From positions 1 to 36,168 of the forward strand of contig NZ_JAUYUS010000082.1 in NCBI RefSeq assembly GCF_030694575.1: a stretch of DNA of 36,168 bases. Direction: 5' to 3'. Shown one piece after another: positions 2,996 to 36,168 of this stretch; positions within the stretch are counted from its first letter, which is position 1; the number at the start of each line of letters is the position of its first letter. The DNA comes from Parvibaculum sp. (GTDB lineage: Bacteria; Pseudomonadota; Alphaproteobacteria; Parvibaculales; Parvibaculaceae). A model generated the notes under the pieces. It ran no database searches and was not told the DNA's origin. It saw nothing but the letters and a program-made list of their open reading frames with translations. The position numbers and the translations under genes were made by a program.

Positions 2996-4792
2996 ATGGC
3001 CAGATCGCCGTTCCTGCTCGCCATCGGCGCTTCAGCCGTTGCAGGCGCCGCCTTGTTCGCGAGCGTTCCGCCGCAGGAGGCGAAGCCCTCGCAAGCCGAA
3101 CTTGAAATACTGCTCGATCCGCGGCTGGTCGCGCAGAACCAGTGCGGGCGCGGCGGCAGGGAGCGTGCGGCCTTCTTCAAACCCTCTTTTCAGCTCGCAT
3201 TGGCGGCCTCGGCGCAAGCCGCGACGAACGCCGCCGACGAGAAGCTGCCGCTCTGGCCCGGCCTCGGCGACCGCACGGTTCGGATCACGACAGCGAGCGA
3301 CGAGGCGCAGGTCTATTTCGACCAGGGCTTTGCGCTGCTCTACGGCTTCAATCACTGGGAAGCGATCCGTGCCTTTCAGGAGGCGCAGCGGATCGATCCC
3401 GGTTGCGCCATGTGCTACTGGGGCGAAGCGAAGGCGCGCGGGCCCAACATCAATGCACCGATGGATGCGGGTGAGGAAGATCCGGCGCTCATCGCGATCG
3501 GCAAGGCTGTGGCGCTTGCAGGCAACGCATCCGCGAAAGAGCGGGCGCTGATCGAGGCGCTGGCGCTGCGCTACGTGGCGGACGGAGAGATGGCGCGCGC
3601 GGAACTCGACAAGCGTTATGCCGAGGCGATGGAGAAAATCCACACGCGCTATCCCGGCGATCAGGACATCGCGGTCCTTTACGCCGAGGCACAGATGGAT
3701 CTTTCGCCGTGGAATTACTGGGAGCGGGATCAGCGGACGCCGAGGCCGCATATTGCCGGCGCGATCAAGGCCGTGGAGAGGGTTCTCGCCGCGAACCCGA
3801 ACCATGCGGGTGCCATCCATCTCCAGATTCATCTGATGGAAGCCTCCGCGATGCCGGAGCGTGCGGAGAAAGGCGCGGGCCGTCTTGCCGATTTGATGCC
3901 CGGTGCCGGCCATCTCGTCCATATGCCGGGGCACATCTATTTCCGCGTCGGCCGCTATCTCGACTCGCTCGAGACGAATGTGCGCGCGGTCGCGGTGGAC
4001 GAAGCCTATCTGGCGAAAACGGAAGGGTCGCCCATCTATCGCTACGGCTATTACCCGCACAACGTCCATTTCGTTCTGGTCTCGGCGCAGATGGCGGGCG
4101 ATGCGAAGACGGCGCTCGACTATGCACGGAAACTCGACGGGCTCATTCCCTTCGACGCCGTGACATCCGCCGCCATCGTCCAGCCGGTCAAGGTGGCGCC
4201 TTACTATGCCTATCTCGAATTCGGAACGGCGGACGACATCGCCAACATGCCCGAGCCGCCGGACGGCCTTCCTTTCGTCAAGGGAATATGGCGATACGTG
4301 CAGGGCGTGGCGGCCGCGCGCGCGGGCGATCTCGCGGCGGCGCGGGCCGAGGCCGACGCCATCGCCGCGCTTCGGGGCGACGAGGCCCTGACGCCGCTCG
4401 CCGCTACGAATGTGCCGGCGGGGGATATCCTGCTTCTCTCCGAAACGGTGCTGCGCGCCCGCATCGATCAGCGCGAGGGCAAGCTCGACGCCGCACGCGC
4501 GAAGCTCGAACAGGCCCTCGTCCTTCAGGACGGTCTCATCTATTCGGAGCCACCTTACTGGTACTATCCGGTCGAGCAGACGCTCGCCGCGGTGTTGCTC
4601 GAAGCGGGCGATGCGGATGCGGCGGTCGCACGGTTCCGGGCCGCGCTGGTCCGTCACCCCAACAATGCATGGTCGCTTTACGGGTTGATGAAAGCGCAGG
4701 AGGCGGCGGGCGACGCGGCGGCGAGCTATACGGCGGAACTGTTGCGCAAGGCCGCGTTCGATCCGGGCGCGATCACGCTCGACCGGCTGTAG
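2996..4792 (+). CDS. Secreted TPR-repeat protein of unknown function
   Basis: A 598-aa protein with an N-terminal hydrophobic signal-like segment (about residues 5-23, ending near ASVPPQ), so probably periplasmic or envelope-attached. Seen: TPR-like units such as QVYFDQGFALLYGFNHWEAI (about 105-125), a second group with NPNHAGAIHLQIHLMEAS, and an alanine-rich C-terminal run of helices including NNAWSLYGLMKAQE. The central HLVHMPGHIYFRVGRY block and WNYWERD recur in a family of bacterial TPR proteins of unknown role; the histidines there are not assigned a function. The start ATG follows AAAAGGGGAATCACC. It is monocistronic: divergent from the peroxiredoxin gene and ended by a strong terminator. 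The fold and export are well supported; the role is unknown. Confidence 0.85.
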   Translation: MARSPFLLAIGASAVAGAALFASVPPQEAKPSQAELEILLDPRLVAQNQCGRGGRERAAFFKPSFQLALAASAQAATNAADEKLPLWPGLGDRTVRITTASDEAQVYFDQGFALLYGFNHWEAIRAFQEAQRIDPGCAMCYWGEAKARGPNINAPMDAGEEDPALIAIGKAVALAGNASAKERALIEALALRYVADGEMARAELDKRYAEAMEKIHTRYPGDQDIAVLYAEAQMDLSPWNYWERDQRTPRPHIAGAIKAVERVLAANPNHAGAIHLQIHLMEASAMPERAEKGAGRLADLMPGAGHLVHMPGHIYFRVGRYLDSLETNVRAVAVDEAYLAKTEGSPIYRYGYYPHNVHFVLVSAQMAGDAKTALDYARKLDGLIPFDAVTSAAIVQPVKVAPYYAYLEFGTADDIANMPEPPDGLPFVKGIWRYVQGVAAARAGDLAAARAEADAIAALRGDEALTPLAATNVPAGDILLLSETVLRARIDQREGKLDAARAKLEQALVLQDGLIYSEPPYWYYPVEQTLAAVLLEAGDADAAVARFRAALVRHPNNAWSLYGLMKAQEAAGDAAASYTAELLRKAAFDPGAITLDRL

Positions 4793-4796
4793 AAAG

Positions 4797-4833
4797 ACAA
4801 AAGCCACCGCATAGCGATTGCGGTGGCTTTTTT
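4797..4833. terminator. Bidirectional rho-independent terminator
   Basis: Perfect 10-bp stem (4802-4811 with 4819-4828, 7-nt loop), preceded by AAAA and followed by TTTTTT. It lies between the convergent TPR gene and the 659-aa gene and can serve both. Confidence 0.9.
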
Positions 4834-4838
4834 ATCTC

Positions 4839-6818
4839 TCAGAACCCGAACATGTGATCGAGGCAGAAGCTCTTGTCGCCGTTGATCATGCCGTGGAAGC
4901 CGAAGAGGCGGCAGGTGGTGTCGCGAATGATGACATAGCCTGCACCGCCCATGCGTTCGCGTTCTTCGCGGCTGAACATTTCCGACAGGCGCCAGTGGAG
5001 CGAGCCGCCGCAGGCGATTTCCACTTTCGTTTCCGCGACCGGCTTGCCTTCCGCGTCATGCAGGATGAGCAGGGTCGAGCTTTTCTCGTGCCAGGGCGTC
5101 GAGGCTGGATAGATCAGGTGGCAGAGCGTGTCGAGCGCGCCGTTCTCGAGCGCGGGGCCCGCCACGCGCAGGAAGAGCCGCGTCGTCAGCCCCGGCGGCT
5201 TGTTGGTGTAGCTCTGCGGTTCGTCCTTGTAGATGACGGCGGTGTTGTAGATATGCGCCCCGAAGATCGTCTCGGCGCGGTGGCCGCTCGATTTCTGTTC
5301 GAAGCGGCCGAGCGCGTGGAGCCAGCCGTTGCCGTCGCCGCCCTCGCGGAAATCGTAGAGGAATTCGACATGGCCGTAGCCCGAGGGAAGCTTCAGCGCT
5401 TCCTCCTTCATCCATGCCTCGATATCGACTTCGACGCTTTCGCGGCGTGGGATGCGGCCGAGATATTTCGTGGCGACGGTCTTGCCCGTCGCGTCGATCA
5501 TTTCCGCGCGAAGCGGCATTTCATGCTCGTCGCGCGCCATCGGCGTCGGCAGCATCACGGTTTCGAACTTGTCGCGCGGCAGGATCGGCAGGGGCATGAT
5601 GTAGCCCTTGCCCATGTGCTTTTCGAGCCTGGCGATTTCGGGGTTCGGTTTCAGGTCCGTGCGTTCGACATTGGCATGGGCGATGCGGCGCTGGCCGCCG
5701 TCGCGCTTCACCTCGTAGCGCGGGCGCACGAAATAACGCCCCGCCACCACTTCGATCTGGTCCGGCCATTTCGCATGCGGCAGCAGGCTTTCCACCGGAA
5801 TGCCGCGCGTGCCGAAGGGCGGGATTTCGTCCTCGTACCATGAGACGTCCTGCGCCCCCATGATGTTGAGGCCGACCGTGCGCGGCGGGATCGGCATCGG
5901 GTGCGAATTCTGGACGAAGAGCGTCACGCGCTCGTCCGCGTCGCCCGCCGGCATGCCGGCATAGTAATCCGCCGGCCAGGCATTCGCGTCGTGGCTGCAG
6001 GAGAGCGCCAGTCCGTTCTCGCCATACATGTCGAGCGCGTATTTGACGACGTCGTGGCCCTTGATGCGGACCGCATGGATGAAAAGCGAGCCGGTGAAGT
6101 CCTCGAGGCCGAAGCGTTCGCGCACTTCAGCGCTGTCGATGGTGAAAGGCGCCCCCGCGACGGGCAGCGTCTCGCGCCATTCGGCGAGCTGTTCGCCCTT
6201 TTCGCCGAAGAGGCAGAGCCAGAGTTCCGGGCTGTCCGCGCCGTGCAGGCCCCAGTAGTTGGCGCTGGCGACGCGCGTGTGGATGCCGTCGGCGCCGTTC
6301 GCGCCCTTCTTTTCGCGCAGCAGTGCGAAGTTGGTCGCGAAGTTCAGCGGGTCGAGATAGTTCGCCTTGTTGGTCAGCATGTCGTCGGGCAGGCGGATGT
6401 CGTCGAGTGTCGCGATGCGCGCGCCGTCCGGGAAAACGTGAGCGATGGAGGGCAGCGTCTTCTGCGCGTCGAAGGCGAGCACGAGCACCGCTTTCGCGCG
6501 GCTGTTCTTCATCGCGTTCACAGGCTCGGCGTCGTGGCCGAGGAAAGCGCCGCCGAGGTCTTCGACGCGCTGGACGAAATAGCCGGCCACGTCGAGACGC
6601 GAGAGGTCGTAATAGGCGTGGAAATTGCCGATGGTGCCGGAGGGATCGTAGATCGCGACCGGGCCGGCCTTTGCGAGGTCTTCGATCAGTGCATGGCCCT
6701 TCGGCGCGGTCAGCGGGTGGCCGAGCGCCTTGAAGAGCGTCGCGCCGCCGGCATTGTTGCCGGGCCGCCAGCCATGCGAAAGATCGGCATTCTTGAACGT
6801 CTCGATTTGCAGCGTCAT
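4839..6818 (-). CDS. Conserved hypothetical protein, 659 aa
   Basis: I do not recognise a named family. The open frame codes 659 aa with normal high-GC codon use and no signal peptide or membrane segment. The N-terminal third (MTLQIETFKNADLSHGWRPGNNAGG, then a segment with AIYDPSGTIGNFHAYYDL) looks like a compact alpha/beta domain. The rest is beta-rich (FGEKGEQLAEW, SLFIHAVRIKG, ATKYLGRIPRRESVEVD), suggesting tandem beta-sandwich units. The start ATG at 6818 follows AAGGT. It lies 20 bases downstream of the oxygenase gene on the same strand, so the two are probably co-transcribed and may act together, for example as enzyme and substrate or as two steps of one pathway (inference). A shared terminator follows. 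Confidence 0.8.
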   Translation of the reverse strand: MTLQIETFKNADLSHGWRPGNNAGGATLFKALGHPLTAPKGHALIEDLAKAGPVAIYDPSGTIGNFHAYYDLSRLDVAGYFVQRVEDLGGAFLGHDAEPVNAMKNSRAKAVLVLAFDAQKTLPSIAHVFPDGARIATLDDIRLPDDMLTNKANYLDPLNFATNFALLREKKGANGADGIHTRVASANYWGLHGADSPELWLCLFGEKGEQLAEWRETLPVAGAPFTIDSAEVRERFGLEDFTGSLFIHAVRIKGHDVVKYALDMYGENGLALSCSHDANAWPADYYAGMPAGDADERVTLFVQNSHPMPIPPRTVGLNIMGAQDVSWYEDEIPPFGTRGIPVESLLPHAKWPDQIEVVAGRYFVRPRYEVKRDGGQRRIAHANVERTDLKPNPEIARLEKHMGKGYIMPLPILPRDKFETVMLPTPMARDEHEMPLRAEMIDATGKTVATKYLGRIPRRESVEVDIEAWMKEEALKLPSGYGHVEFLYDFREGGDGNGWLHALGRFEQKSSGHRAETIFGAHIYNTAVIYKDEPQSYTNKPPGLTTRLFLRVAGPALENGALDTLCHLIYPASTPWHEKSSTLLILHDAEGKPVAETKVEIACGGSLHWRLSEMFSREERERMGGAGYVIIRDTTCRLFGFHGMINGDKSFCLDHMFGF

Positions 6819-26115: not shown

Positions 26116-27777
26116 TCAATTTACGAGGTCAGCGGCTGTTTTCTCTACTCGCTCCAAATCTATAAGTCTAACGCCATTTATGGCTTCGCCGGCTTCCAGC
26201 GGGCGATACTCTCCCGTAAAGGAGTCCTTGATCTCGCTTCGTTTTGTAAAGTGGTGTTCATACATTCTCGGCCCCGCCCCGGAGAAGGGCACAACAACCA
26301 TCTTATCTTGCAGGGTTGGGTCTTTCACCCAACTAGCCGGGACCTCGGTGATGATCGAATCACTATGCAGTTCGACCGCAAGGCTCTTAGTGTAGGGCTC
26401 GATGTAGCAGACCTTGGAGATTCCGGCTGCAACCAGATGACGAGCGCAATTATGACACGGAAAAGTAGTGCATAAAAGGATGCAACCGTTTGTGCTCTCA
26501 CCACCCCGCGCGGCGTTGAGAATCGCATTCATCTCAGCATGAATTGATCTTGAGTATTCAATGAGGTCATTCACCCCTGGGAGTTTCTCAAATAACTCCT
26601 CATTGGCAATGAGTGCTTTTTTGATTTTCGCGCTTGTGGTCTGAAGCAAGGTTTCATCGATCCTTGGAAGTGCTCCTTCTTTCGGTGGCATCACTGCCTC
26701 GGCCAGTTTTTCCGCGATATTCTCTGCGAACCACTTTGCTGCTTTTTTCTTGAACTCGTTCTTTTTGCGGGTGTTGTGACATCCTATAAACGGCGAACCG
26801 TCCTGCTGCTCGAACTTCCACAGGTAGCAACGATGGTCATTTTCATCGCCTTCTCCATATACGCCGCCCCCAAATTTTGGTGCCTCATTCGAGCCGGTAG
26901 CAATGATCCTTCCATCGTGCGTAAGCACAGACGCTCCCACTTGTCTAGAGAGGCAGGCTGACTGTAGAGATGCGGAGAATGCGTGATACATCGCTCGCTC
27001 TAGGGACGTCGGCCTCACGATACCGTTGCCCGTGATAAGACTTATCAATCTAGCCAGATCATTGTTTAGATGCGGAAGGTCGGGTAACCCATCGGGATTA
27101 TTGTCTAGAAAATAATCAGATAGATAAAACGTATCGCGGACGCCCTGCCCGAATTTTCGCTCATTATCTTTTTCATCTCGGTCAAGGAATTTTTTGAGTT
27201 CGTCCCTCGGGACCCCAGAAAACTTACGCTGTGTTAGACCTTTTTCTCCACCCAACCTTCCCTCGCGTTGCGATCGGTCACAGTGAACACCAATGAGGTG
27301 AAAAGACTCTCCGTATACAGTTCTTAGGAGATGGACTTCATCGGCGTGCTTCAAGGAATCTATTATGTAAGCAATCTTGTCGGTCCCAGGCTTCTTGTCG
27401 CCGCGTCGGCGTATAATTTCTTTCACAGAAAGGCTGGCCACAGCCGCGGTGTGTTGCTCCCTAAGCTCATCGCCCAAGTCCTGGAATACTTGTACACGTG
27501 CCATACGGGACTTGCCGTCCTGTTTTTCTGAAGACGACGGGATTCTCTCTGGGAACTGGTCGGCAATTAAGCTGCTCATCTTAATCACGTGGCATTCGAA
27601 ATCGATGGCCTCCAATAAATCGCTAAGCTTCGTTGAAACTTGGGAGCATCCGGAGCCCGCATAGCCGACCACTCCGAGAACTATCTCTCGCGACTTTGGG
27701 GATATTGGTTGTTCCTTCGGAACGGACGTTTTGTCGATCTGAGCGTTTTGGTTGATTGCGGCGGCAGGCTTCGTCAC
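26116..27777 (-). CDS. Anti-phage dCTP deaminase (AvcD/DCD type)
   Basis: A two-domain enzyme of the antiphage deoxycytidylate deaminase family (AvcD, DCD), which depletes dCTP/dCMP during phage infection. Numbering from the GTG at 27777 (553 aa): an N-terminal P-loop-like domain begins with REIVLGVVGYAGSGCSQVS (about 30-48), where the Walker lysine is replaced by Cys (C44). The C-terminal zinc deaminase domain has S-I-H413-A-E415 and P-C441-H-N-C444, the full catalytic set, with an additional segment (GSPFIGCHNTRKKNEF) before it. The GTG has GGAG six bases ahead; an ATG at 27846 and a TTG at 27864 are possible starts without a ribosome site. AT-rich composition marks it as acquired. It is co-transcribed with the 163-aa gene. 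Confidence 0.88.
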   Translation of the reverse strand: MTKPAAAINQNAQIDKTSVPKEQPISPKSREIVLGVVGYAGSGCSQVSTKLSDLLEAIDFECHVIKMSSLIADQFPERIPSSSEKQDGKSRMARVQVFQDLGDELREQHTAAVASLSVKEIIRRRGDKKPGTDKIAYIIDSLKHADEVHLLRTVYGESFHLIGVHCDRSQREGRLGGEKGLTQRKFSGVPRDELKKFLDRDEKDNERKFGQGVRDTFYLSDYFLDNNPDGLPDLPHLNNDLARLISLITGNGIVRPTSLERAMYHAFSASLQSACLSRQVGASVLTHDGRIIATGSNEAPKFGGGVYGEGDENDHRCYLWKFEQQDGSPFIGCHNTRKKNEFKKKAAKWFAENIAEKLAEAVMPPKEGALPRIDETLLQTTSAKIKKALIANEELFEKLPGVNDLIEYSRSIHAEMNAILNAARGGESTNGCILLCTTFPCHNCARHLVAAGISKVCYIEPYTKSLAVELHSDSIITEVPASWVKDPTLQDKMVVVPFSGAGPRMYEHHFTKRSEIKDSFTGEYRPLEAGEAINGVRLIDLERVEKTAADLVN

Positions 27778-27835
27778 AGCTATCTCCGTCAGTTCTGCGT
27801 TCCTGCTGCAATAGTAACGGTTATTTAAGATTAAG

Positions 27836-27845
27836 TGACGCGTCA
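27836..27845. promoter_or_regulatory. Perfect palindrome upstream of the deaminase gene
   Basis: TGACGCGTCA, a 10-bp perfect palindrome next to an AT-rich stretch (TTAATCTTAAATAAC on the minus strand), 59-68 bases upstream of the preferred GTG start. It could be an operator overlapping the promoter; it would lie in the coding region if the upstream ATG or TTG were used. Confidence 0.35.
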
Positions 27846-28100
27846 TTTCTTGAGGCGAGTTCAATTAGTCATTTCGGCACAAGAATGAAATTGGCTTCCG
27901 CAATGCGGCCGGGCTGCCGGATAACGGCCTTGCTTACCCCTCGCAACCTCGATCAGCGCACGGACGGCTTAGTGTTGTACTTTGCTGATCCCTTTCTCGA
28001 AACGTATCCTCTCTCCGTTAGGCCCCACTACAATGAAGCCCATCCAGTGGACGCGGGGCGATATGAACGCGTCGTGCCGATAGCCGGGGCCTTCATCGGC
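27846..28100. other. Intergenic region upstream of the dCTP deaminase
   Basis: About 255 bases between the deaminase promoter and the SIMPL-gene terminator, with no credible protein gene. In Vibrio avcID systems a short inhibitory RNA is encoded next to avcD; a similar RNA could lie here, but I see no sequence proof. Confidence 0.3.
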
Positions 28101-30317: not shown

Positions 30318-31085
30318 CTATTCCAATGCTTCGTCGGGGAGGACGAGTAGCGTCAGCAGCTCGTCGTTCGGCAAACGGAATGACTGTTCCTGAATCTCAA
30401 ACCGATCGACCCCCCGAAACTCGAACCATGCATCTGCACCAATCTTGCGCGGAAAGGCGCTTTCATTGGCATCGCCGAACAACATCTCGAAGGCGAAGCT
30501 TTCATGATCGAGCTCTTGCCGTGGAAACCACCAGCCCGGAATCATCGGCGCGCGCCGAAACCAGCGCCGACGCTCCTTATTGTGGCACACCGCCAGGATC
30601 GGAAAGTGATCGAGATCGATGATCTTGAGCAGCGTCGCGGTGTCGCTCACGTCGAATTCGTCGGCAATTTCCCGGACGGCCGCAAGGGTCGGCCGCTTCA
30701 TTTTGATCATCCGCGGCTGGACCATGAAGCTCGGCAGGATCAGGTCGGAGGCGAACTGGTCCGCCTGTTTCTCCGGGTTAAGCGCATCATCCGCCGGATT
30801 TCCGATATCGTGCGCCCCGCAGAACAAGATACGTCCCCGGTGGTGGTGCCAGTGGCCGATTTCATGCGCGATTGAAAACCGCCGCCGGGTCGGAATGGCT
30901 TTACTGTTCACCGTGATGAGCGCGCGGCGCTCTCCGCCGACGATCATGGCCTCACACTTGTCCAGCGGTCGGTACTTCACCGCCGCGCCGAGCGTCCAGG
31001 CGATTGCCTCAAGGTCGATGTCCTGCGGGCACTCGATCCCAAGTTCCTGCAATATGCGCTCGGCAGGCCGAAGGCGATCATTCAT
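30318..31085 (-). CDS. ImmA/IrrE family metallo-endopeptidase
   Basis: A 255-aa zinc peptidase of the ImmA/IrrE (DUF955) family. Members cut phage-type repressors (ImmA) or DdrO (IrrE) to release a response. Seen: the zinc motif HEIGH (74-78, inside RRFSIAHEIGHWHHHRG), then EKQADQFASDLILPSFMV, where the usual third ligand and helix lie. A C-terminal extension of about 100 residues (HFPILAVCHNKERRRWFRRAPMIPGWWFPRQELDHESFAFEMLFGD) is not part of the core and could be a sensor domain. The ATG at 31085 overlaps the end of the preceding gene by eight bases; a longer open frame is probably unused. It is the last gene of a three-gene overlapping operon divergent from the ubiquitin-like operon. Confidence 0.85.
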   Translation of the reverse strand: MNDRLRPAERILQELGIECPQDIDLEAIAWTLGAAVKYRPLDKCEAMIVGGERRALITVNSKAIPTRRRFSIAHEIGHWHHHRGRILFCGAHDIGNPADDALNPEKQADQFASDLILPSFMVQPRMIKMKRPTLAAVREIADEFDVSDTATLLKIIDLDHFPILAVCHNKERRRWFRRAPMIPGWWFPRQELDHESFAFEMLFGDANESAFPRKIGADAWFEFRGVDRFEIQEQSFRLPNDELLTLLVLPDEALE

Positions 31086-31512
31086 CCTCTTTCTTGCCTT
31101 CAAGCTCATCAAGCGCCGCAATATCTTCGAGCAAACCTTCCATATCGCTGTCCGACAACCCTTCGCCCTTACGCGCAGCCAGCATCAATCGTTGCTTCAG
31201 GCCCTGATCGCCCGAGCGTAGCTGCTCGAATTTTGCGCGCGCGGCATCGAGCGCTGTAACGTTCGCCTTTGGCTCACGCTTGCGCCAGTCCGCCACTTCG
31301 GTGCGGGCTTGCTTAAGGCGCTCGCGCGCGCGTTCGGCTTTCGCCACTGCGATCGTCGCATCCACTTCGGCAATGCAGGAATCCGGATCGAGTCCGGCAG
31401 CGGTCAACTCTTCGCGCAGCGCATCGCCCGAAGCAATTAGGATGCTCTCCACAAGCGCGTCTTCGATGCGCTCCAGTTCTTCACGTGCGGTTGGCTTCTT
31501 GGATTTTCTCAT
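31078..31512 (-). CDS. Coiled-coil hypothetical protein, 144 aa
   Basis: A 144-aa charged, largely helical protein (REELERIEDALVESILIASGDALREELTAAG, then AVAKAERARERLKQARTEVADWRKREPKANVTALDAARAKFEQLRSGDQGLKQRLMLAARKGEGLSDSDMEGLLEDIAALDELEGKKEDE), with a heptad-like coiled coil in the middle. The ATG at 31512 overlaps the preceding stop (ATGA); the stop in turn overlaps the metallopeptidase start. I do not recognise the family. Given that ImmA/IrrE enzymes usually act on a dedicated regulator encoded beside them, this protein or the sigma-like one upstream is the obvious candidate substrate or partner (inference). Confidence 0.78.
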   Translation of the reverse strand: MRKSKKPTAREELERIEDALVESILIASGDALREELTAAGLDPDSCIAEVDATIAVAKAERARERLKQARTEVADWRKREPKANVTALDAARAKFEQLRSGDQGLKQRLMLAARKGEGLSDSDMEGLLEDIAALDELEGKKEDE

Positions 31513-32108
31513 GTCGTCCACCCGTCGGGGTAGAGTTTTCTTGCGACAGCCCTGATCCGCTTGGCGGCGTAGTCGAGTCCGACCTGGTCGAGGCCGGTTG
31601 CCTCGCGCAGCGCCTGCCCGCGCAGTCCTTCGTCCCAGCCCATCAGAACCAGCATCGCTTCCTCGTCATTTTCCAGATAAGCGCGAATGTCCCGCAGCAT
31701 TGATGCCGCGACCCCCTCATCTTCCGGACTCGGCACCGTTGATTCAGTCGCATCGGCGCTCCCCGGTTCGGGCGGATCAGCGACGAAGACCACACGCTTG
31801 GTCTGTTCGCGGGCGTGCGAGGCGATGCTTTTCATCGTCATAGCGAGGAATGCCATGAACAGCACGTCACGTGGGCACTTGCGCTCGCCGTCCAGCGCGC
31901 GGCACAGCGCTTCGCGCAGCAGCTCACCCTTTTCGAAGGCCGTTCCGCGGCGCCGGATCGCCTCGATGGCGTATAGCTTCAGCTTGTCGTCGTGGGACAA
32001 GCCGTCGAACGCGGGGCCGATCTCATCGGCCCGCAAACATTCGCGTGCTGGCGCGTTCCGGATCGCGGTCACTTCGGCCATCGGGTCCTGCGGATCAGGT
32101 TCGTTCAT
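31509..32108 (-). CDS. Sigma-70-like protein
   Basis: A 199-aa protein resembling small sigma-70/ECF-type factors found in alphaproteobacterial accessory regions. The N-terminal part (LSHDDKLKLYAIEAIRRRGTAFEKGELLREALCRALDGERKCPRDVLFMAFLAMTMKSIASHAREQ) fits a sigma region-2-like helical domain. An acidic linker follows (ADPPEPGSADATESTVPSPEDEG). The C-terminus (AMLVLMGWDEGLRGQALREATGLDQVGLDYAAKRIRAVARKL) has the shape of region 4 with a helix-turn-helix. The start ATG at 32108 is 176 bases from the divergent ubiquitin-like gene, so it could control both promoters. It is the first gene of the trio. The family assignment is likely, not certain; promoter specificity is unknown. Confidence 0.65.
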   Translation of the reverse strand: MNEPDPQDPMAEVTAIRNAPARECLRADEIGPAFDGLSHDDKLKLYAIEAIRRRGTAFEKGELLREALCRALDGERKCPRDVLFMAFLAMTMKSIASHAREQTKRVVFVADPPEPGSADATESTVPSPEDEGVAASMLRDIRAYLENDEEAMLVLMGWDEGLRGQALREATGLDQVGLDYAAKRIRAVARKLYPDGWTT

Positions 32109-32284
32109 CTATATATGCCGTCCTGCACCGCGTTTCAGAAATCGGGCCGCGATTTTTCCGAAACCGCTCCCCCGGCGGCATAGAAGGGCAGAACGGTTCC
32201 CTTGGCTGGCTCCCCCCATCGAGTGCAGCGCGGCTGGATCCGACGAACCCGGCGCACGCGCGCCATGCAGAAATGGAGGCTAAC

Positions 32285-32533
32285 ATGCCTGCTGAAGAAG
32301 TGACACTTGAAGTCGGCACCCCGAAAGGGCTGTTCACCGGTACTTTTCCGAAGACCGCCAAGGTCGAAGACGTGATTGCCGCGGCGGTGGACAGCCTTGG
32401 TCTCGATCGCGGCGACACGCTGGAGCTGGTCTATAACGGTCAACCTCTCACGCCGGTCAACCGTCCTCTGGTCAGCTTCGGACTCGCCGGGACGGTGCAG
32501 CTCGAACTCGTGGCCACCGGCGACGGCGTCTAA
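32285..32533 (+). CDS. Ubiquitin-like protein (single beta-grasp domain)
   Basis: An 82-aa protein with one ubiquitin-like domain: TLEVGTPKGLFTGTFPKTAKVEDVIAAAVDSLGL gives the beta-hairpin and central helix, LELVYNGQPLTPVNRPLVSFGLAGTVQLELVATGDGV the later strands (compare ubiquitin's I-F-A-G-K-Q-L...L-x-D-Y...V-L-x-L). It ends ...ATGDGV, not Gly-Gly, so either Gly81 becomes the conjugated end after removal of Val82 or the terminus is used as is. The start ATG at 32285 follows ATGGAGGCTAAC. It is the first of four rightward genes and is the predicted modifier of the conjugation system. By position it corresponds to BilA, which however has two such domains. Confidence 0.8.
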   Translation: MPAEEVTLEVGTPKGLFTGTFPKTAKVEDVIAAAVDSLGLDRGDTLELVYNGQPLTPVNRPLVSFGLAGTVQLELVATGDGV

Positions 32534-32535
32534 CT

Positions 32536-32997
32536 TTGGCGACCGTCACCGATCTCGTATTTGCCGAGCAGTTCGACCATCTCCGCGAGGTGGCCGAGCA
32601 GCGCGGCTGGCCGCTCAAGCAGTTCGAGGGGCCGGGTTTCGAACTCGTATTGCCCGCCCGCGACGGCTCGCAGTTCGGCCTCCATGTCATGTGCGACGGC
32701 TATCCCGGCACGCCGCCGGCCTGGCGGTGGTGCAACCCGGAGAGCGGCGTCTTCGATCAGCCCGCCGACACCCCACGCGGTAGCGGTGGATATTTCAACG
32801 CGAACGGACGCATCTGCGCGCCCTGGAACCGGCTCTCCTACAGGCAGATCGATTCCAAGGGGGCACATGCCGACTGGCACCTCAGCACCTGGTTAACTAA
32901 TCCCAAGACCGGTAGCTGTACGACGGTCGCGGCCATGGCGCTGCGCATGGCGGTCGAACTGCAGAGCGAGCGCTATCAGGGGCGGAAGGGCAAGTAA
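32536..32997 (+). CDS. E2-like ubiquitin-conjugating protein
   Basis: A 153-aa E2-fold protein. Beta-sheet part: GPGFELVLPARDGSQFGLHVMCDGYPGTPPAWRWCNPES (about 32-70, matching the E2 core up to the YPxxPP-like turn). The catalytic region is YFNANGRICAPWNRLSYRQ, where C94 in G-R-I-C sits as the active cysteine does in E2 enzymes (G-x-I-C-L). WHLSTWLTNPK follows, as the conserved Trp/Leu-helix does. It should take the modifier from the E1-like protein and transfer it. The start is a TTG at 32536, three bases after the upstream stop, with no better candidate. The stop overlaps the next start (TAATG). Confidence 0.78.
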   Translation: MATVTDLVFAEQFDHLREVAEQRGWPLKQFEGPGFELVLPARDGSQFGLHVMCDGYPGTPPAWRWCNPESGVFDQPADTPRGSGGYFNANGRICAPWNRLSYRQIDSKGAHADWHLSTWLTNPKTGSCTTVAAMALRMAVELQSERYQGRKGK

Positions 32998-33518
32998 TGT
33001 GGAAGCACCTTAGCCAGTTGTTCGGCCGCAAACCCGCCTACAGGCCGGGCCCGTCGCCACGCCCGCGTCTCATCCTCACCCAGCCCTGCTTGCAGGCGCT
33101 TTGCGTCTGCCTCGAGCCCGAAATCCGCCGCAGCCATGAGGGCGTTGCCTATCTGCTCGGACAGACCGACGGCACGGTTACGCTTGCCGTCGCCGCCGTC
33201 CGCCCGGAGGCCGTCACGTCGCCCGGCAGCTTTGCCGTGAGCGCCCCGGCAATGGCGAAGGTAGTGCGCACCGCTACCAGGGCCGGGCTACAGGTCGTGG
33301 CCCAGGTCCATACCCATCCCGGCGGGGCGTATCATAGCGACGGCGACGTCGAAGGCGCGCGGATCGTCTATCGTGGATTCGTCTCTGCCGTATTCCCCGA
33401 CTACGGTCGGCGCCTTCCAGCGCTGGACGGCGCAGCCATCTACATGTTTCGGAGCGAGGGCGGATTCGTCGAGGTCTCGCCCGAGCGCGCCAGTGTTGTG
33501 CCGGGGAGGCTGACATGA
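32997..33518 (+). CDS. JAB/MPN (JAMM) metalloprotease, predicted deubiquitinase
   Basis: A 173-aa JAMM-type zinc protease. The motif residues are E48 (HEGVAYLLG), H105 and H107 (QVHTHPGG), S114 and D117 (YHSDGD). The second His and Ser are separated by six residues rather than the usual seven. The enzyme is predicted to process the modifier's C-terminus and/or remove it from substrates. The ATG at 32997 overlaps the E2 stop by one base and its own stop overlaps the next ATG. A short basic, proline-rich N-terminal extension (GRKPAYRPGPSPRPR) precedes the domain. This is the third gene of the four-gene operon. Confidence 0.85.
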   Translation: MWKHLSQLFGRKPAYRPGPSPRPRLILTQPCLQALCVCLEPEIRRSHEGVAYLLGQTDGTVTLAVAAVRPEAVTSPGSFAVSAPAMAKVVRTATRAGLQVVAQVHTHPGGAYHSDGDVEGARIVYRGFVSAVFPDYGRRLPALDGAAIYMFRSEGGFVEVSPERASVVPGRLT

Positions 33519-34825
33519 ACGAAGCCGAGTGGCGCGCTGCGCGCAACAGCCGCTCTCTGCGCTACGCCGGGCGCGTGCTCGATCCGGACAAACGGGTGCA
33601 TCTGCGTGCCGATCCGGCTTACGCCGCCCGCTATGACGGGCAGGTCGCGATTCTGGTTGCGGCCAACCTCTTCGGCCGCATGACTCCGGCGCTTGCACTC
33701 GATATTCCATCGGTGCCGGTCGTCGCGCCGCTCCCGTGGGCAGGGGTGGATTTGCGAGAATACGTGCTAAAGCAGCTCTACGCTGCCGATCCGTTCGGCA
33801 AGTTCGCGCAATGCAACGCCAGCGACGGCGACTATATCATCCATCTCGGCCGCGCGGGCGCCTCGGCTGTCGTGCACGGATCAGGCTGGAATCTCTATGC
33901 CGGACCTGCGCCGTCGCCGCTTGCGGATGATGAAACCGCCAACCCGGTCGGGCCGGCTATGGCGGCGATCCTCGCCGGTGCGGAAGCGTTCAGGAGCGCG
34001 CTGTCTCACCCAGCCGCCTTTCAGCTCAACGCGCTCACTTGGCACGCCGGCATGGCGACTGCCGCGGATGCACCGCTGCCCACCGCGTTGTCTCCCGGCG
34101 CTCTGTGGTTCGTCGGCCTGGGCTCCGTCGGAACCGCCGTCCTCTACTTCCTGACGCTTGCTACGCGCGATTTCTCGGCGCGGCTCTTCGACATGGACAA
34201 GGTCAAAATCCACAATCTCGATCGCTCGCCGCTCTTCATGGACCGGCATGTCCGTTGGCAGAAAGTCGATGCGGCTGCGGAATATCTTCGCGGCCTCGGG
34301 ATCACCGCCGTGGAACCCGAGCCTTTCGCGCTCGATGAATCGCCCGCCTGGACTGGACGCCCGCTGGGCGTTCCCGACGTTCTGATATCGGCAGCGAACG
34401 AACGCAATGTCCGCGCTGTGATCGAGAGCAACTTCCCGCCCTTGCAGATTTACGCCACCACGGGTCGGAACTGGCAGGCGGCGGTCATCCGCCACGCACC
34501 GTTCGAAGATCCCTGCTCGTGCTGCCTGTTCCCCGAAACGGCTCACGCACCCACGACCTGTGCCACCGGTTCATTGCCCCAAGCCAGCAACGGCGAGCAG
34601 ATGGACGCGGCGCTTCCGTTCCTTTCCTTTGCTGCCGGGGTAATGGCGGCTGCCGAAATTCTCAAACGTGGCCTACCGGGCTATCCGTTCGTCTCGAACC
34701 GCGTGGTCCTCAACACCAGCCCGCGCATTCGCACTGTGCCAGCCGCCTTGTCCCTGCGCTCCAGCTGCATCTGCCAGAAGCGAAGCAGTACAGTGCACCG
34801 CCAAATGCTGGATCTGCCAGTCTGA
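33515..34825 (+). CDS. E1-like ThiF/MoeB adenylyltransferase
   Basis: A 436-aa E1-type protein. The ThiF/MoeB core starts near residue 195: nucleotide-binding FVGLGSVGTAVL (G201, G203, G206), FDMDKVKIHNLDRSPLF (D226, D228, N234, R237) and VDVLISAANERNVR-like DVLISAANERNVR (288-300). Cysteines C334, C336, C337 and C349 are a possible zinc or thioester site and C418/C420 (SSCICQK) lie at the C-terminus. The roughly 190-residue N-terminal part (LFGRMTPALALDIPSVPVVAPLPWAG) is not a ThiF core and may be a partner-binding domain. The ATG at 33515 overlaps the JAB stop (ATGA). It should activate the modifier. It is the last gene of the operon. Confidence 0.87.
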   Translation: MNEAEWRAARNSRSLRYAGRVLDPDKRVHLRADPAYAARYDGQVAILVAANLFGRMTPALALDIPSVPVVAPLPWAGVDLREYVLKQLYAADPFGKFAQCNASDGDYIIHLGRAGASAVVHGSGWNLYAGPAPSPLADDETANPVGPAMAAILAGAEAFRSALSHPAAFQLNALTWHAGMATAADAPLPTALSPGALWFVGLGSVGTAVLYFLTLATRDFSARLFDMDKVKIHNLDRSPLFMDRHVRWQKVDAAAEYLRGLGITAVEPEPFALDESPAWTGRPLGVPDVLISAANERNVRAVIESNFPPLQIYATTGRNWQAAVIRHAPFEDPCSCCLFPETAHAPTTCATGSLPQASNGEQMDAALPFLSFAAGVMAAAEILKRGLPGYPFVSNRVVLNTSPRIRTVPAALSLRSSCICQKRSSTVHRQMLDLPV

Positions 34826-35566: not shown

Positions 35567-35719
35567 ACTAATTGCCGCGAAGAGCCGGCGCCGTTCCAAT
35601 GATGAGTCTGGAAAAGCGCCAGGTCGTTTCCTATATGGCAAAAGAAGCCATAATGGGAAAAATTGACAAATATGGCTATTTTGGTTAGAATTCTCGCGTC
35701 GATCTCAATGGAGTGGAAG

Positions 35720-36070
35720 ATGCCCGCCGATATCATCCCCAGTCTGAAAACACTGCCGCAGCGGAGCGCAACGCAGGTGAAGAACAGATGGGCCGACGTG
35801 GTGCGCGAGGTGCGCAAGCTCGGCAGCGTCGCTATCACGCAGCACAATCAGGTTGAAATGGTGGTGATGAGCGCCGAGAGCTACCAGAAGATATCCGCCC
35901 ATGCCGAGGAAGCCCGGGCCCGCGGCGAAGCGGGGCTTGCCACTCTTTCAGATGACTTCGACCGGCGCCTCGCCTCGTTCAAGACCGAGGGGATCCGCGA
36001 TCGGGTCGAGGGCGTGATGTCCGCGCGCGGCCGCATCAAACGTCCTGCGAAGGCTGGCGCCACTTACTGA
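35720..36070 (+). CDS. Phd/YefM-type antitoxin
   Basis: A 116-aa antitoxin of the Phd/YefM class: the N-terminal DNA-binding half contains SATQVKNRWADVVREVRKLGSVAITQHNQVEMVVMSAESYQKI, the usual Phd fold. The C-terminal half (EEARARGEAGLATLSDDFDRRLASFKTEGIRDRVEGVMSARGRIKRPAKAG) is the part expected to bind the toxin. The ATG at 35720 follows GGAGTGGAAG. The stop TGA shares its last base with the ATG of the next gene. It is probably autoregulated with its partner. It reads in the same direction as the ubiquitin-like operon but is far from it and probably independent. Confidence 0.85.
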   Translation: MPADIIPSLKTLPQRSATQVKNRWADVVREVRKLGSVAITQHNQVEMVVMSAESYQKISAHAEEARARGEAGLATLSDDFDRRLASFKTEGIRDRVEGVMSARGRIKRPAKAGATY

Positions 36071-36168
36071 TGCCCGCAAAACCGGCTCGTCCCGTCATTT
36101 TCGTGCTGGCCGGCGTCAATGGTGCCGGCAAAAGCTCGGTGGGCGGCGCGCTCCTCAAGGAATATGGC
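36070..36168 (+). CDS. Zeta-toxin-like P-loop protein (3' end beyond window)
   Basis: Only 33 codons are present. MPAKPARPVIFVLAGVNGAGKSSVGGALLKEYG has a Walker A motif (AGVNGAGKSS) right at the N-terminus, the form seen in zeta-type toxin kinases (which phosphorylate UDP-N-acetylglucosamine in known members). The one-base overlap with a Phd-type antitoxin gene supports a toxin role. The rest is beyond the right edge, so the catalytic residues cannot be checked. Confidence 0.7.
   Translation, partial: MPAKPARPVIFVLAGVNGAGKSSVGGALLKEYG

Follow-up and report, generated by a model that had tools for sequence, protein, structure and literature searches.

A predicted four-gene ubiquitin-like conjugation operon of Parvibaculum, a probable third lineage of Bil systems

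A 36,168-nucleotide stretch of DNA from Parvibaculum sp. (Alphaproteobacteria; assembly GCF_030694575.1, contig NZ_JAUYUS010000082.1), which we call the window, carries four packed genes on its forward strand at 32285-34825. They encode a single-domain ubiquitin-like protein (Ubl), an E2-like conjugating enzyme, a JAMM (or JAB) protease, and an E1-like activating enzyme (Table 1). A first-pass annotation, made from the letters alone, had described a complete modifier/E2/protease/E1 operon with the content and order of the Bil antiphage systems, and both descriptions held up. The genes follow the A-B-C-D order of Bil operons; the PADLOC models for BilB (3.3e-6), BilC (9.4e-16), and BilD (8.6e-18) match the last three proteins; and all four genes are present in 23 of 26 loci of this kind, counting the window. 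We propose, with a probability of roughly 0.8, that the operon encodes a complete Bil-kind pathway of Ubl conjugation and deconjugation and represents a third lineage beside types I and II.

The four proteins are 66 to 82% identical to those of the nearest relative found, locus L010, at a ratio of nonsynonymous to synonymous change (pN/pS) of 0.19 to 0.29, which indicates purifying selection on all four genes. L010 also supports the TTG start of the E2 gene, since its own start aligns with the one in the window. The genome holds one E2 locus of this lineage's kind.

Table 1. Features of the operon and its surroundings in the window
Feature	Position	Strand	Details
Ubl (BilA position)	32285-32533	+	ATG start, 82 aa, C-terminus ...ATGDGV
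E2 (BilB position)	32536-32997	+	TTG start, 153 aa, 2-base gap after Ubl stop codon
JAB/JAMM protease (BilC position)	32997-33518	+	ATG start, 173 aa, 1-nt overlap TAATG with E2
E1 (BilD position)	33515-34825	+	ATG start, 436 aa, 4-nt overlap ATGA with JAB
M78 (ImmA/IrrE) protease, CapP-type	30318-31121	-	PADLOC capP 1.9e-66, 222 bits; Pfam Peptidase_M78 4.4e-13
147-aa protein, putative, CapH position	31078-31521	-	adjoins protease gene; 57% identical in L010
199-aa protein, no family match	31509-32108	-	first gene of divergent regulator operon; 55% identical in L010
Divergent intergenic region	32109-32284		two palindromes TTTCNGAAA at 32133 and 32155; other blocks kept in L010
Anti-phage dCTP deaminase	26116-27864	-	4.4 kb away; NCBIfam NF041025, 444 bits (cutoff 400)
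Phd/YefM antitoxin and start of the next frame	35663-36168	+	antitoxin Pfam 2.2e-8

The E1 joins a BilD-like N-terminal part (about residues 1 to 190) to a ThiF-type adenylation domain, which matches Pfam ThiF above the cutoff (1.9e-11). Its AlphaFold2 (AF2) model has a mean predicted local distance difference test (pLDDT) score of 87.7, dropping below 50 in residues 342-363, the crossover loop that contains C349. Foldseek places three BilD chains first (8tz0_B, 8tyz_A, and 8tz0_A; TMq 0.74 to 0.75, E values of 1.9e-23 to 7.8e-23); eukaryotic E1s, ThiF, and MoeB rank below them. A profile of the lineage's E1s (A6) aligns with BilD 8tyz_A at 5.1e-30 in two stretches, profile positions 27-351 with BilD residues 32-351 and 377-431 with 439-496; the region of the catalytic-cysteine (CYS) domain amounts to 26 profile positions versus 88 BilD residues. 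The E1, E2 (A5), and Ubl (A7) profiles all omit L005 and L009, and A6 is also built without L019 (masked stretch), L021, L027 (late start), and L029 (fragment).

Two pairs of cysteines, C334/C337 and C418/C420, are predicted to bind zinc, and Cys349 is the predicted catalytic residue on a short crossover loop. C334, C337, C349, and C418 are invariant in all 19 aligned E1s. All 25 lineage E1s compared, and L051 as well, contain the pattern CxxC-x10-13-C, giving a CxxC plus a crossover-loop cysteine in all 26, and 12 to 21 residues separate the loop cysteine from DAALPF in 25 of 25 E1s. L047, a type II-like variant, lacks the pattern. When the E1s are aligned, PTTCATG of the window stands opposite LTCVEAG of MoeB and RNCRTAG of ThiF, and type II enzymes carry a long insertion. 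As read from these alignments, the E1s of the lineage lack the CYS domain of type II BilD.

A crossover loop and zinc site of ThiF/MoeB character, together with a single-sequence PDB search in which ThiF and MoeB are the best matches of the E1, would also suit a sulfur-carrier or metabolite pathway. There, a ThiS/MoaD-like Ubl would be activated by a ThiF/MoeB-like E1 and released by the JAMM protease, and the E2-like protein would act as an acceptor or scaffold. We consider this explanation highly improbable. The NCBIfam ThiF model scores the E1 at 32 bits versus a cutoff of 275, and ThiF/MoeB models in general fall far under their cutoffs; the N-terminal part of the E1 is BilD-like, and its position in the tree described below is apart from MoeB/ThiF. 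Moreover, the E2 fold comes with conserved Cys, Arg, His, and Trp residues, and no biosynthetic gene lies among the annotated neighbors examined.

The E2 is characterized by the motif C-x4-R-x2-Y ... H-x2-W, in which Cys94 is the predicted catalytic residue. This cysteine, already a candidate in the first-pass annotation, is invariant in 21 of 21 aligned E2s, as are P60, P61, R99, Y102, H111, W114, and W119; L051 has Phe at Y102. Besides the two loci omitted throughout, the E2 profile leaves out L021 and L029, where no E2 was found. The AF2 model of the E2 has a mean pLDDT of 95.7, and its top three PDB matches in Foldseek are E2 chains of a bacterial E1-E2-Ubl complex (8tz0_C, 8tz0_D, and 8tyz_C; TMq 0.58 to 0.62). 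Fold prediction had been proposed as a check on the E2, and it succeeded. Family matches are weak, namely, the PADLOC BilB match given above and Pfam DUF7665 at 0.00073. By hhalign, the E2 aligns with type I BilB over nearly its full length (E value of 1.1e-11) and with type II BilB in the N-terminal part only (6.4e-7), and so it is nearer the former. C94 of the window aligns with a tyrosine of type I BilB. A section of PMC11354881 defines the CEHH motif of type II E2s as Cys, +6 Glu, +8 His, and +13 His; this motif occurs in none of the 21 lineage E2s, all of which have Tyr at position +8. Two type I-like BilBs, in L042 (4666-5151, -) and L043 (3436-3918, +), read YRPW where other type I BilBs have their cysteine-containing stretch, raising doubt that they use a cysteine there.

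The Ubl ends in ...ELVATGDGV, where Gly81 is the predicted conjugation glycine and Val82 a predicted one-residue cap. All 20 aligned Ubls have G81, and a C-terminal Gly-Val is found in 20 of 22 (21 of 23 counting L051). The Ubl profile, which additionally excludes L011, L021, and L029 (no Ubl), matches the UBL domains of ubiquilins, with a single-stretch match to ubiquilin-2 at 3.8e-6; polyubiquitin entries outscore ubiquilin-2 solely through summed repeats. Compared with two type II BilA proteins by hhalign, a weak test, the profile yields a probability of 9.9 and an E value of 0.0032. Pfam offers weak matches at most (TUG-UBL1, 0.0091), the window Ubl stays under the cutoffs of all four libraries tried, and NCBIfam returns nothing for the Ubl or the E2. 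The protease was correctly recognized as a JAMM enzyme at first pass: it matches Pfam Prok-JAB at 8.2e-8, over the cutoff, and the BilC of PDB entry 8tyx at 9.2e-8, in addition to the PADLOC BilC model, and E48, H105, H107, S114, and D117 are the same in all six sequences compared.

The E1 tree comprises 36 adenylation domains over 230 columns (L029 and L051 were left out), carries SH-aLRT/UFBoot support values, and is rooted on E. coli MoeB, ThiF, and a MoeB-like protein of this genome. The lineage, two type II BilD proteins, and a variant from Bradyrhizobium barranii form one group at 98/98. A clade of five type I BilD proteins stands separate at 100/100 and excludes the window, while the MoeB/ThiF root splits off at 98.1/98. 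An E1 phylogeny was the second check proposed at first pass, and it refutes a biosynthetic clustering of the E1. Neither of the two outcomes named there as contradicting conjugation, a failed E2 fold or a biosynthetic E1, occurred, because the E2 and E1 models both best match the solved Bil E1-E2-Ubl complex.

This tree also bears on whether the operon is simply a diverged Bil of type I or type II, with no claim to a subtype of its own. Such a reading draws on the 98/98 grouping with type II BilD and a separation from it supported at only 3/30, on the homology of the E2 to type I BilB along its length, and on the matches to PADLOC BilB, BilC, and BilD. However, both type II operons examined encode a 205-residue BilB with a different motif, and their BilDs, of 514 to 519 residues, contain a CYS insertion. 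In type I BilD, the CxxC pair is missing and the candidate cysteine sits at another place, and type I BilA is 154 to 163 residues long in 4 of 5 operons, the 105-residue BilA of L042 being the outlier. The lineage's own combination, meanwhile, is constant over seven bacterial phyla and two archaeal classes. Mere drift therefore seems to us unlikely. We call a third lineage on architecture and not on tree support, because the E1 loop, the E2 motif, and the Ubl tail set the operons apart and features of both described types are mixed in them. The first-pass suggestion of a distinct subtype draws support from the same three features and none from two others, the tree and the single beta-grasp domain. 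Among the differences from Bil listed at that stage, the unusual C-terminus proved to be conserved and the neighboring regulator/protease module recurrent. A single beta-grasp domain was rejected as a novelty; type II BilA has one, and the BilA of pNGR234a, 98 residues long, carries the annotation DUF2604.

Besides the window, we found 25 further loci. In-house profiles recover all four genes in A-B-C-D order in 22 of 25 loci and in addition in L051, for 23 of the 26 loci that include the window; the incomplete loci are L011, which lacks a Ubl, and L021 and L029, where a contig edge leaves only an E1 in view. According to record titles and taxonomy, the hosts span Pseudomonadota, Nitrospirota, Acidobacteriota, Chloroflexota, Actinomycetota, Planctomycetota, Balneolota, Halobacteria, and Thermoplasmata. 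Five of 72,556 plasmid records carry a relative (Mesorhizobium huakuii, Halomarina, Haloferacaceae XH8, Natrinema zhouii, and Mycolicibacterium chubuense). A genome collection supplied 22 loci, of which three (L018, L020, and L024) are the same haloarchaeal plasmid records as L007, L008, and L006 and were counted once, and IMG/VR supplied one contig, L051; these two scans used one peptide pattern each and so are not exhaustive. No relative was found among 50,697 phage records. At 1e-10, the E1 has no counterpart in the other genomes of 40 from the order or of 385 drawn from the class. Over 398 genomes drawn from the phylum, three pass 1e-25 with the E1 profile: this genome, G524, and G667. The latter two (520-residue frames that match positions 27-351) look like type II BilD.

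Three of these loci call for separate remarks. L051, a putative viral contig, contains an open reading frame recognized by eye as serine-recombinase-like. In L011, a transposase-like frame, also judged by eye, lies upstream of the E2 at 3943-4899 (+), the place expected for the Ubl that was not found. L013 is titled Mycobacterium sp. KBS0706; its E1 groups with those of Mesorhizobium and Bradyrhizobium at 100/100, which may reflect a recent transfer or a mislabeled record.

In the window, a divergent operon faces the four genes across the intergenic region. The TTTCNGAAA palindromes found there occur nowhere else in the window and are partly conserved in L010, although their number alone is not significant (2 found versus 0.78 expected; 18 of 100 shuffles reach 2). 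The blocks TTTCAGAAA and TTCCGAAA are kept in L010, and a search upstream of the operon turned up no sigma-70-like promoter. The M78 gene recurs: an in-house profile, for which 10 of the 18 positive loci served as seeds, detects it in 18 of 26 loci, always on the opposite strand and, in L021 and L030, downstream of the E1. Pfam M78 is found in 16 of the 18, L021 and L023 lying outside the Pfam scan. L011, L026, L027, and L029 are among the loci without it. A helix-turn-helix (HTH) protein or fused HTH domain accompanies M78 in 10 of 18 loci (L005, L009, L012-L016, L019, L025, and L028). A passage of PMC13373217 states that CapP is activated by single-stranded DNA and cleaves CapH, and that CapH plus CapP, or CapW, controls 219 of 544 Bub operons.

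Two identities were considered for the other proteins of this module, and neither was assigned. The 147-residue protein, a candidate CapH by position, has no HTH by Pfam, and hhalign sees no likeness between it and HTH proteins from three relatives (probability of 0.5). For the 199-residue protein, which reaches Pfam Prok-TraM at 0.0041, under the cutoff, the gene order of L051 and L023 had hinted at a sigma factor, and hhalign gave a probability of 0.6 versus sigma-70 proteins.

Relatives show other regulators at this position. In L051 (3814-4437, 3419-3796, and 2530-3519; -) and L023 (3933-4544, 3526-3936, and 2672-3688; -), a sigma-70-type protein, a small protein, and an M78 protease replace the HTH protein and M78, possibly forming a sigma/anti-sigma/protease switch. 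L026 has, at 3066-4518 (-), two genes of unknown family in place of M78, one matching phrog_3364 at 1.8e-23 and nothing in Pfam; this replacement is STAS-like by eye and perhaps resembles CapK/CapS. At the end of the window, the antitoxin gene is followed by the start of a frame with a P-loop that is zeta-type-toxin-like by eye.

Several results weigh against the reading of a complete conjugation pathway of a third lineage. Monophyly of the lineage with respect to type II is supported at only 3/30. The E2 Foldseek matches have modest E values (0.009 to 0.08, none below 0.001), and a PDB search with the E2 sequence profile brings up no E2. No PADLOC family matches the window Ubl, including the BilA model, which scores 3.5e-54 on the control L040, and the E1 and E2 of the actinobacterial locus L022 match no PADLOC Bil model. 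Two of 23 Ubls, both haloarchaeal, lack the terminal Val and end in GAGR and GASE. Finally, M78 is present in 0 of 4 archaeal loci, and no CapH partner for the protease can be identified in the window or in L010; in the window, the 147-residue protein matches the PADLOC capH model at an E value of just 0.0046. On the other side stand the computed results, namely, the genes and their order, the predicted folds, the conserved residues, the E1s without a CYS domain, and the recurrent M78.

For a conjugation pathway of a third lineage, we infer the chemical steps, the target, the trigger, and the defensive role as follows. Damage or infection would switch the operon on through the CapP-type M78 protease. 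The JAMM protease would trim the C-terminal Val off the Ubl and expose Gly81, the conserved Val having kept the free Ubl inactive until then. The E1 would adenylate Gly81 and form a thioester on Cys349 of its short, ATG7-like crossover loop, with no separate cysteine domain. The Ubl would move from the E1 to Cys94 of the E2 and then onto lysines of a target, and the JAMM protease could undo the conjugation. By homology with described Bil systems, the operon likely conjugates its Ubl to proteins; that these include phage structural proteins would be carried over from those systems.

Anti-phage or stress defense is the likely purpose. An anti-phage function is plausible because the lineage occurs sporadically, is carried on plasmids, is accompanied by M78 control, and, in the window, lies near an anti-phage dCTP deaminase gene, which itself suggests a defense neighborhood. 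The same chemistry could instead serve host or stress targets, an option that we judge unlikely while granting it appreciable weight. A damage-type regulator suits either role, and the relevant part of PMC13373217 presents Bub operons, sometimes under similar control, as systems for which phage protection is not demonstrated. Nevertheless, sporadic occurrence (1 of 40 order genomes and 1 of 385 class genomes), plasmid carriage, and a nearby defense gene are typical of defense systems.

We also posit, tentatively and with doubt slightly outweighing confidence, a broader interpretation. These operons would be a third Bil type of Bacteria and Archaea, in which a ThiF/MoeB-style crossover-loop E1 with the two-part body of BilD works with a dedicated E2, making it a living intermediate between sulfur-carrier and canonical ubiquitin activation. 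The near-invariant Val cap would make activation dependent on the operon's own JAMM protease, and haloarchaea would gain an E2-based system besides SAMP (small archaeal modifier proteins). The SAMP system of haloarchaea is not known to use an E2. A crossover-loop E1 within a complete E2-bearing pathway that archaea share exceeds what was claimed at first pass. L006, L007, and L008 are haloarchaeal plasmids bearing a full Ubl-E2-JAB-E1 operon, and the haloarchaeal copies (Halomarina, Haloferacaceae, and Natrinema) are all plasmid-borne; a 2010 survey, in the portion of PMC2948915 on this subject, found no E2 in archaea. If the interpretation is true, complete Ubl-E2-DUB-E1 systems are more diverse and wider spread than the Bil types described so far, the gap between MoeB/ThiF and the cysteine-domain E1s is spanned by an enzyme that still exists and can be purified, and the lineage may help to explain the origin of ubiquitin tagging. 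Because the Ubl, the E2, and the L022 proteins are poorly matched, profile-based defense finders may miss such operons or call them incomplete. The open-access literature searched, whose scope excludes Chambers 2024, Hor 2024, Gong 2025, and Ye 2026, yielded no description of the lineage.

Among known systems, the closest comparison is with type II Bil, which we take to be the name for the pNGR234a operon and the 8tyz and 8tz0 complexes. The shared features are gene order, a single-domain Ubl, a JAMM protease, and the BilD N-terminal part of the E1, and the solved type II complexes are the best structural match of the window E1 and E2 models. In contrast, the window E1 lacks the CYS domain, its E2 has 153 residues and C-x4-R-x2-Y...H-x2-W where type II has 205 residues and CEHH, and the lineage's Ubl tail is GxGV. 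The corresponding part of PMC11354881 places the catalytic cysteine of the type II E1 in its CYS domain, and an excerpt of PMC1779556 (Iyer 2006) lists the pNGR234a operon as row 6c. Two observations on neighboring operons belong here: TIR-domain and caspase-family genes stand behind the type II Bil operon of Rhizobium sophoriradicis (L046, 6724-8082, +), and the Bil variant on a Bradyrhizobium barranii plasmid (L047, 712-5847) has divergent M78, HTH, and CopG genes and, by eye, a coiled-coil N-terminus on its BilA-position protein.

Type I Bil, represented by PADLOC BilABCD and by L040, L041, L043, and L048, shares the gene order, the JAMM protease, the E2 size, and P-[CW]-[DNE]-R...H-x2-W. 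However, BilA has 154 to 163 residues in those four loci versus 82 in the window Ubl, and the candidate cysteine of type I BilD, which has no CxxC pair, lies within a longer insertion. Type II CBASS, with Cap2 and Cap3, has the same E1, E2, and JAMM activities, but Cap2 is an E1-E2 fusion encoded beside a CD-NTase, whereas the window has separate E1 and E2 genes and its own Ubl; Pfam shows no nucleotidyltransferase among nine window proteins scanned, and PADLOC E1-E2 models reach 2.8e-6 at best. One Cap2-type E1-E2 model gave no match in 190 members of the class, but it also missed all 14 of its controls, so that this absence carries no weight. As for Bub, the E1 profile gives a partial BubCD match of 24 bits confined to positions 225-310. 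Finally, ATG7, whose crossover-loop cysteine is described in a segment of PMC12355090, other crossover-loop E1s, and ThiF/MoeB resemble the window E1 in carrying a cysteine on the crossover loop without a cysteine domain. The window E1 differs from ATG7 and from ThiF/MoeB in that a fold search puts BilD first and its N-terminal part is BilD-like.

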